64,000 bases of DNA from Methanofollis tationis (GTDB lineage: Archaea; Halobacteriota; Methanomicrobia; Methanomicrobiales; Methanofollaceae), in contig NZ_JABXWR010000001.1 in the NCBI RefSeq assembly GCF_013377755.1, positions 445,104 through 509,103 on the forward strand, read 5' to 3'. Below the pieces are notes generated by a model. It was given only the letters and a program-made list of their open reading frames with translations. It was not told where the DNA came from and ran no database searches. Positions 12,406 through 14,455 of this stretch are shown piece by piece (the stretch's first letter is position 1; every line of letters starts with the position of its first letter). A program made the position numbers and the translations under genes.

Positions 12406-12438
12406 CGGTTTCAAGTCAGAATAGGCCCCGATACCGGA

Positions 12439-13134
12439 TTATCTTTCCGGCATGATGGCGGCGAGCATCGACCTGACCCGGCCGATCGGGATGCCTCCCT
12501 CGGCAAGGACGCAGACCGCCCCTTCCTCAGTCGGGGCGGCGATAAGTACTCCATCTGGTGTTTCGAGGATCACGCCGGAGAACGCCCCGGCGTGCATGGC
12601 CCCGGCAAGGGTCCGGGCTGATTCGATCGCTGCGAGAACCCTGCTGCAGGCAAGGCCGGCAGGGCGGGAGCCCGAGATGACGTGGAGGTCTGTACCCCGG
12701 CACTCCGCCACCATCAAAACGCCTGCTTCTGGCCTGAGGGCCGGCGGGGATGAGACCGGGGGCGCGGCAGGAGGCGCCCTGGTCGGGGGCGGGGGAATGT
12801 CCCGGGTCGGCCTGTCCGGGTCGTGGATCGGGACGCCGTGGTCGCGGCACCATGCCGCCGCCCGGTCAAACTCCTCTTCGGTGTATTTGCAGAGCGAAAA
12901 TTTCACCGCGTCCTGCGAGAGCAGGTATTCCTTTGCTGCGTTGCCGCGAAGGGTGATGCTCCCGTGCCTGAAACAGTACGCCAGCGCCTCGCCCCGCCTG
13001 ATCAGCATGAACCCCTCGCCTTCCTGGACGAAAATCCGCACTTTTCCGAGAAACCGTGCAGTATGCGAGTAGACCCATGAGAGCGGGGCCTCCATCATGC
13101 CAAGGCTGGTCCCTTCGGGGAGTGTGGCTGTCAT
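12439..13134 (-). CDS. Two-domain signalling protein with C-terminal roadblock/LC7-like domain
   Basis: A 231-aa protein in three parts: an N-terminal domain (about 1-105) containing FLGKVRIFVQEGEGFMLIRR, reminiscent of DUF2226/DUF4388-type domains; a Pro-rich linker (about 110-135); and a C-terminal region with the alternating pattern of a roadblock/LC7 fold (GVILETPDGVLIAAP). Its ATG overlaps the stop of the preceding roadblock gene by four bases (ATGA), so the two are translationally coupled. Roadblock proteins act as small-GTPase regulators or scaffolds; no GTPase lies nearby. Domain names are by eye. Confidence 0.6.
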   Translation of the reverse strand: MTATLPEGTSLGMMEAPLSWVYSHTARFLGKVRIFVQEGEGFMLIRRGEALAYCFRHGSITLRGNAAKEYLLSQDAVKFSLCKYTEEEFDRAAAWCRDHGVPIHDPDRPTRDIPPPPTRAPPAAPPVSSPPALRPEAGVLMVAECRGTDLHVISGSRPAGLACSRVLAAIESARTLAGAMHAGAFSGVILETPDGVLIAAPTEEGAVCVLAEGGIPIGRVRSMLAAIMPER

Positions 13135-13469
13135 ATCACCGATGCGATAAGGTCGAGGTTCTTCTTCATCTCGTAGCGGACACGCCCGGGATTGGCGCCG
13201 GGTTCGAGGAGGACGGCGAGGACGTCGTCGCCGGGGAGGGGCATCATGAGCAGGACGCCGCCGCCCGCCTCGATGAGGACGCCAGCAAACCCGTCCGCCC
13301 CGAGGTCTCCTGCAAGGCCGTTCCAGGAGACCGACGCCGCCGGGATGAGGGGGGCCGCCGCTTTCCAGTCGGCGGCGCCCGCCTCCCCGCGCACCCGGCC
13401 GTCGGGTCCAGCGACGCAGGCGCCGATTGCCCCTGCAATCAGAAGTTTGCCAAGTGCGAAGGTGAGCAT
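13131..13469 (-). CDS. Roadblock/LC7-like (MglB-type) protein
   Basis: A 112-aa protein starting at the ATG at 13469; the longer open frame only adds Arg-rich, non-conserved sequence overlapping the gene before it. The pattern GKLLIAGAIGACVAGPDGRV then FAGVLIEAGGGVLLMMPLPGDDVLAVLLEPG is that of a single roadblock domain, which forms dimers. It begins 10 bp after the 75-aa gene and overlaps the next gene by four bases. It probably partners the downstream fused roadblock protein as a heterodimer (inference). Confidence 0.6.
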   Translation of the reverse strand: MLTFALGKLLIAGAIGACVAGPDGRVRGEAGAADWKAAAPLIPAASVSWNGLAGDLGADGFAGVLIEAGGGVLLMMPLPGDDVLAVLLEPGANPGRVRYEMKKNLDLIASVI

Positions 13470-13479
13470 ACCGACCGTC

Positions 13480-13707
13480 CTATGCCTGCAGGGCGAGGAT
13501 GTCCTGCCTGATCCGTGCGGCGACGTTCTCGCCGAGCGCCGGTCCGACCGCCCGATGGCAGGCCTCCGCAAGCGCCGGCAGATCGGCGGGGGTGAGGTCT
13601 GCGGGGCTTTTGCCCAGAGACTTCTTCGTGCACCTGGAGAGCACGATCCCGGCCGAAGGGCCGAGGTCTTCCCTGAGGACCGCAGTCAAACGCTCGTTCA
13701 GCGCCAT
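13480..13707 (-). CDS. Small helical protein of unknown function (75 aa)
   Basis: Not recognised. It starts at ATG 13707, preceded by GAGAGGAGACGGC, a good ribosome-binding site; earlier codons in the frame overlap the HAMP gene and look non-coding. The protein is predicted mostly helical with one Cys (SRCTKK), containing LRKD-type segment LREDLGPSAGIV. It lies 11 bp after the HAMP gene and 10 bp before the roadblock gene, so it is probably a soluble component of that signalling set, possibly an adaptor between the membrane protein and the roadblock proteins (inference). Confidence 0.6.
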   Translation of the reverse strand: MALNERLTAVLREDLGPSAGIVLSRCTKKSLGKSPADLTPADLPALAEACHRAVGPALGENVAARIRQDILALQA

Positions 13708-13718
13708 GCCGTCTCCTC

Positions 13719-14141
13719 TCACTCGCCCTCTTCCCGCGAGAGCGCATCCAGGATCTTGTAGGAGTTGATCATCCTGTTGAACGAGGAGGCAAGATCCCCG
13801 ATCTCGTCGTTGGTCATCACGTGCACCTCGGAGTTCTTCAGGTCGCCCATGGAGACCGAGCGTGCGACTTCTGAGAGCTGGGTGATGGGGCTTGTGATGC
13901 TGCTTGCAAGGAAGAAGCTCCACATCACCACGATGGAGAGCGTCACGAGCGTCAGGAGGAAGATCGTCGCTGGCAGACCGATGCTTGACACGATGCCGCC
14001 TGTGTCGCCGGCCGCCATGAGACCGATCAGGGCGATCGGGATCACCGCTACAAAGAGCATGCTCACGAAGAGCTTGTAGAATATGGGGATCTGGAGTGTC
14101 AGACTCCTCTCCGCCGTACCTGTCCGGGCCATTCCATCCAT
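13719..14141 (-). CDS. Short membrane protein with HAMP domain and no output domain
   Basis: A 140-aa protein with two membrane segments (about 20-43 and 52-78) and a HAMP domain (about 78-130: SSITSPITQLSEVARSVSMGDL, then NDEIGDLASSFNRMI). The loop between the membrane segments is only about ten residues, so there is no extracellular sensor, and nothing follows HAMP that could be a kinase, cyclase or methyl-accepting domain. It heads the set of co-directional genes with two roadblock-like proteins. GAATATTTAAATTC lies about 28 bp before the ATG, suggesting a leaderless transcript. Confidence 0.85.
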   Translation of the reverse strand: MDGMARTGTAERSLTLQIPIFYKLFVSMLFVAVIPIALIGLMAAGDTGGIVSSIGLPATIFLLTLVTLSIVVMWSFFLASSITSPITQLSEVARSVSMGDLKNSEVHVMTNDEIGDLASSFNRMINSYKILDALSREEGE

Positions 14142-14162: not shown

Positions 14163-14176
14163 GAATTTAAATATTC
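14163..14176 (-). promoter_or_regulatory. TATA box for the HAMP/roadblock operon
   Basis: GAATATTTAAATTC in the sense of the operon is a near-palindromic archaeal TATA box whose centre is about 28 bp from the ATG at 14141. This spacing predicts transcription starting at or beside the start codon. Confidence 0.6.
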
Positions 14177-14455
14177 TCTTTTTTATTTATCCGGTATGGT
14201 CAATTCAAAGTTAAATTAAAAATAATTTTTGGCGATCCACCCCTCGTCGCCGGGCATCATCAGGGAAATTGCGCGGCGGGTGAGTACGGAAATGCAGGAT
14301 CACGGGAAAAAATCGCCAGAGCAGGCGCAATAGGGGGCACAGCCTTTTCTGACGCGCCCCTTCGGTGCCGGGGGTGGATGCGTGGCGACTGAACGGTGCC
14401 GTCATGATGCCCGGGCTGATAGTATCGATCGCAGAAAAACCCTCTGAAGAAGAAG
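14177..14455. other. Intergenic region without recognised gene
   Basis: About 280 bp between the HAMP-operon promoter and tRNA-Leu(CAG). A 64-codon open frame on the minus strand (14211-14405) has no ribosome-binding site and no recognisable product. Nothing else was identified. Confidence 0.4.

Follow-up and report, generated by a model that had tools for sequence, protein, structure and literature searches.

In Af1503 of Archaeoglobus fulgidus, which reportedly gave the first HAMP structure, HAMP is the sole cytosolic domain and no output domain follows. To our knowledge, the signalling target of HAMP-terminated receptors has stayed open; STAC has been put forward as their partner, but no mechanism was offered. 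The companion of the output-less Af1503 is the small STAC protein Af1502, and the genetic coupling of such a protein with its receptor, exactly as seen below, has been described (PMC4834066). In the MglA-MglB-RomR system of Myxococcus, a roadblock protein of the MglB family occurs with the GTPase MglA and a response regulator. In the Streptomyces conservons (CvnA-CvnD), the membrane HAMP protein CvnA, a histidine kinase, is encoded with the roadblock protein CvnB and the GTPase CvnD.

Here we analyzed a stretch of 64,000 nt from Methanofollis tationis (contig NZ_JABXWR010000001.1, 445,104-509,103), termed the window, which encodes a HAMP membrane protein, a 75-aa protein and two roadblock-containing proteins, RB1 and RB2. 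Like Af1503-Af1502, this module has HAMP as the sole cytosolic domain, a coupled helical protein of 60-90 aa with an LGPx(x)A motif, and no output domain. Different from Af1503-Af1502, it has no extracellular sensor and contains two roadblock-containing proteins, and its invariant partner is RB2, not STAC. It shares with the Myxococcus system an MglB-family roadblock protein, an MglA-like GTPase in the genome and, in some lineages, a response regulator; however, the GTPase lies outside the operon, a HAMP membrane receptor is added and RB2 carries a DUF4388-like domain. This likeness does not imply GAP activity. As in conservons, a membrane HAMP protein is encoded with a roadblock protein, but no histidine kinase was found in the operon, which also lacks a GTPase. 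The combination of HAMP with STAC is known. A roadblock protein as invariant partner and the loss of the sensor are, as far as we have checked, apparently undescribed: a literature search on roadblock proteins with HAMP or Methanomicrobiales, whose scope left the 2015 STAC research paper outside, found no description of the module.

Layout of the locus

The genes lie on the minus strand in the order TM-HAMP, 75-aa protein, RB1, RB2, M1 aminopeptidase. The features are as follows.

14213..14228, minus strand: inverted repeat AAATTA-TTTT-TAATTT, 5' of the TATA-like box, a possible operator
14165..14174, minus strand: TATA-like element ATATTTAAAT, about 24 nt 5' of the HAMP start codon, assigned by consensus alone
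13719..14141, minus strand: HAMP stub (TM1-short loop-TM2-HAMP), 140 aa; Pfam PF00672, E=2.5e-12
13480..13707, minus strand: 75-aa helical protein, probable stand-alone STAC protein (Af1502-type), motif LGPSA
13131..13469, minus strand: RB1, single-domain roadblock/LC7 protein, 112 aa
12439..13134, minus strand: RB2, DUF4388-like N-domain, linker and roadblock domain, 231 aa
9550..12414, minus strand: M1 aminopeptidase (PepN-like), by Pfam/NCBIfam; start at 12414 (TTG) or 12405 (ATG)

The first-pass annotation had proposed four tightly coupled genes, and all four were found in place. The HAMP and 75-aa genes are separated by 11 nt and the 75-aa gene and RB1 by 10 nt, RB1 and RB2 overlap by 4 nt, and the aminopeptidase starts 24-33 nt after the end of RB2. 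Orthologues of the module genes in the nearest genome are 92-100% identical at the amino-acid level. The HAMP gene differs from that of the nearest relative at 7 nucleotides, all seven silent, and the differences in the remaining module genes fall mainly at third codon positions; therefore these are real genes under protein-level selection. The other loci compared within the genus carry a TATA-like element at the equivalent position; judged from the sequence, HAMP would be the first gene of the operon, and its leader short or absent. The AT-rich inverted repeat recurs in several same-genus loci, exactly or with one or two changes.

The receptor stub and its small companion

As the first-pass annotation had claimed, the HAMP protein has neither a sensor loop nor an output domain: its TM helices are joined by about a dozen residues, and it ends 14 residues past HAMP, its sole cytosolic domain. 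Nearly all relatives are 140-190 aa in length. In a profile search, the HAMP domain of Af1503 and sensory rhodopsin transducers were among its nearest relatives of solved structure. In an alignment of the stub to sensor-HAMP receptors from its own order (~315-324 aa), TM1 and TM2-HAMP aligned with 33-41% identity, whereas the extracellular (Cache-like sensor) domain was wholly absent. Because both flanks align while this entire domain is missing, the stub is, by sequence comparison, an Af1503-type receptor with its extracellular domain deleted, and therefore a derived sensor-less variant and not a canonical Af1503-like member. HAMP is the best-conserved member of the module, with 72-100% identity within the genus and 42-58% across most of the order's other families. 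A scan of genome contigs with the HAMP query returned six Methanomicrobiales loci, all other matches being unrelated HAMP proteins; no HAMP-roadblock fusion was found, which counts against the signalling proposal below.

The 75-aa protein of the window matches no Pfam or NCBIfam family. Its family profile found Af1502 (5A1Q) as the best PDB match (E=0.22), and Foldseek aligned its AF2 model (pLDDT 91, three DSSP helices) to 5a1q_A, a four-helix bundle, with TM-scores of 0.66/0.71 and a probability of 0.77, but with an E-value of 2.4 and at rank 6; neither match is significant by itself. The TM-score of 5A1Q is the highest among the Foldseek matches listed for this model. The LGPx(x)A motif is present near the N-terminus as LGPSA (residues 15-19), and in the family alignment its G is invariant and its P nearly so. 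The 75-aa gene is coupled to the HAMP stub in the manner of STAC genes, and 13 further members of the STAC-like family directly adjoin other output-less sensor-HAMP receptors. Because the profile and model matches combine with the motif and with these 13 neighbours, the 75-aa protein is probably a stand-alone STAC protein, the Af1502-type companion of output-less HAMP receptors. According to the STAC authors, Af1502 has diverged too far to be picked up by searching with sequences; they aligned it with the STAC protein of Methanofollis liminatans (PMC4834066). The first-pass annotation had called the module unexplained; this overstates the case, since a partner already described for receptors of this kind, STAC/Af1502 (PMC4834066), is matched by the 75-aa protein.

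Elsewhere in the order, STAC-like proteins of ~76 aa trail many output-less sensor-HAMP receptors (loci L183, L185-L192, L194, L196-L198 and L161). One of them appears fused behind a DUF4388-like domain (L189) and another to TPR repeats (L161).

Roadblock proteins and their paralogous operon

Neither RB1 nor RB2 of the window matches Pfam or NCBIfam, and their identity as roadblock proteins rests on relatives and profiles. The Robl_LC7 family (PF03259) is matched by 15 of the 17 RB1-family and 12 of the 22 RB2-family members. RB1 had been read as roadblock/LC7-like, and this was borne out: it is 33% identical to its paralogue RB1', which passes the PF03259 cut-off, and its family profile matches the solved roadblocks Rv3364c and CvnB5, archaeal roadblocks and MglB, with E-values down to 4e-11. 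RB1 is also homologous to the C-domain of RB2 (probability 98.6). The profile of RB2 matches 7yh1 (E=8.7e-9), and the top Foldseek matches of its model are archaeal and Ragulator roadblocks (probability 1.00). The roadblock fold was thus recovered for RB2 by model and profile and for RB1 by profile alone. A scan of genome contigs with RB2 as query returned no relatives.

RB2 had been described as a fused roadblock protein. Two fused roadblock domains are ruled out by the AF2 model, in which an N-domain (residues ~1-105) is followed by a disordered linker (108-135) and one C-terminal roadblock domain; a DUF4388-like family is the relative identified for the N-domain (probability 90).

A second two-protein pair of this architecture, RB1'-RB2', occurs throughout most of the order and also in one other family within the phylum. 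Different from the module, it has neither HAMP nor STAC. The module RB2s form one clade (support 100/100), apart from RB2', and the split fits an old duplication. In the window genome the pair lies at G000:C1:1934000-1948000 (L031), with counterparts at L036, L039 and L044. Operons of the L031 type encode a Vhu-like [NiFe] hydrogenase, the roadblock pair, a DUF4388-like protein, MinD, a FlaI/PilB-type ATPase and TadC-like proteins; the pairing of a hydrogenase with pilus-type machinery is an odd combination. MinD ATPases accompany other roadblock/DUF4388-like sets of the window genome as well. At G000:C1:1783000-1794000 (L226), a third roadblock match lies beside a REC-MetOD2 regulator, a tandem DUF4388-like protein and a second MinD.

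The operon partners of RB1' and RB2' (MinD, the FlaI/PilB-type ATPase and the TadC-like proteins) bear on one alternative, namely that the module arose from the RB1'-RB2'-DUF4388-like-MinD-pilus ATPase operon by duplication and serves as its sensory arm in controlling the assembly or placement of surface filaments, like MglA/MglB/RomR in Myxococcus. Consistent with it, many archaeal T4P loci reportedly include arCOG02603 roadblock proteins (PMC4858521), and in family f2, where a hydrogenase/pilus cluster and a prepilin peptidase surround the module, it directly adjoins the RB1'-RB2' operon, followed by an A24 prepilin peptidase. However, no pilus genes were found near the module in the window's genus or in families f4 and f5, and we regard this alternative as rather unlikely.

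Conservation, NTPase candidates and a proposed route

The HAMP stub, counted at E below 1e-30, is present in 63 of 199 Methanomicrobiales genomes. The set is conserved in relatives to the extent that RB2 follows the HAMP stub in all 40 genomes with a readable contig, from four families. Neither result that the first-pass annotation would have taken as a refutation, lack of conservation or lack of the roadblock fold, was obtained. RB1 lies between the two in 30 of the 40 loci and is missing from all ten f4 (Methanoculleus-type) loci; STAC is present in 11 loci and absent from 29. A search for a divergent STAC in the HAMP-RB1 gap of the genomes without STAC found none. These absences of RB1 and STAC exclude a fixed four-part complex.

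The HAMP-RB2 pair stands in at least four unrelated contexts, and its linkage is therefore more than frozen synteny. Its surroundings are a transporter and the aminopeptidase in family f1, the cluster mentioned above in f2, and, for part of f5, genes of coenzyme A biosynthesis. In two f5 genera, a REC-MetOD2 (PF18548) response regulator overlaps RB2 or begins at its stop codon; this type is restricted to Methanocellales and Methanomicrobiales (PMC5847659). That RB1 and STAC come and go among loci would suit a reading in which adjacency reflects shared regulation alone, the HAMP stub, STAC and the roadblock proteins not forming one complex. We consider this very improbable, since HAMP-RB2 adjacency has been kept in every readable genome across relocation to differing neighbourhoods.

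The aminopeptidase had been suggested to belong to the same transcript. It is probably co-transcribed with the module in the window species and adjoins it in most same-genus loci read; outside the genus it was never adjacent. A core role is ruled out because the synteny is limited to the window's genus.

An HAE3/MMPL transporter lies directly upstream of the module in six same-genus loci, and an enrichment of transport genes at STAC-receptor loci has been reported (PMC4834066). The module might accordingly act on transport across the membrane or on an envelope process: the HAMP stub would sense the HAE3-type RND transporter, which most same-genus genomes encode upstream, and STAC and the roadblock subunits would gate it. 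But no such transporter occupies this position in the window species, its nearest relative or any other family read, which leaves this reading improbable as well.

The absence of a GTPase, noted by the first-pass annotation, is true of the operon, and no small GTPase was found in the module loci read; the genome, however, encodes two MglA-like GTPases, one stand-alone and one fused to a KaiC-like domain. The stand-alone form is present in 58 of 63 genomes with the module versus 55 of 136 other genomes of the order (Fisher p ~7e-13, phylogeny ignored). It is not an obligatory partner, because genus g31 (three genomes, 96-98% complete) carries the module without it.

We consider it somewhat probable that these genes form a conserved Methanomicrobiales membrane signalling module, in which a stripped HAMP receptor tethers a roadblock platform, whose targets would be an NTPase and/or a response regulator. 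From the gene order we infer that the roadblock pair receives its signal from HAMP. In this proposal, the HAMP dimer would sense its stimulus through its two TM helices, from the membrane itself or from a neighbouring membrane protein, possibly the RND transporter encoded upstream in relatives. In place of a covalent output, the HAMP C-terminus would dock separate subunits: RB2 always, RB1 usually and STAC sometimes. The roadblock domains of RB1 and RB2 may pair as a heterodimer, a platform that would bind and regulate an NTPase in trans, for which the stand-alone MglA-like GTPase is the best candidate and a MinD-type ATPase the other. In some lineages the output might pass through the REC-MetOD2 response regulator.

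A stripped receptor kept beside a roadblock protein in every genome read offers a concrete candidate effector for HAMP-terminated receptors, and the effector question becomes approachable with small soluble proteins. We tentatively propose, at slightly less than even confidence, that output-less HAMP receptors have their missing output in roadblock proteins: through non-covalent contact, the HAMP coiled coil would pass its signal to a roadblock platform in control of an MglA-type GTPase (or a MinD ATPase). If true, this would connect roadblock proteins and small GTPases with a transmembrane receptor in archaea, and the hand-off from HAMP to roadblock would be a route of transmembrane signalling not previously described.

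Two observations concern the GTPases themselves. In Methanoculleus-type genomes (L221, L227, L228 and L229), a homologue of the aminopeptidase lies within ~1.3 kb of the stand-alone MglA-like GTPase, in divergent orientation; this link, noticed post hoc, is suggestive though indirect. At L216 and L225, a KaiC-like domain is fused to an MglA/Arf-like GTPase, beside another KaiC-like protein.
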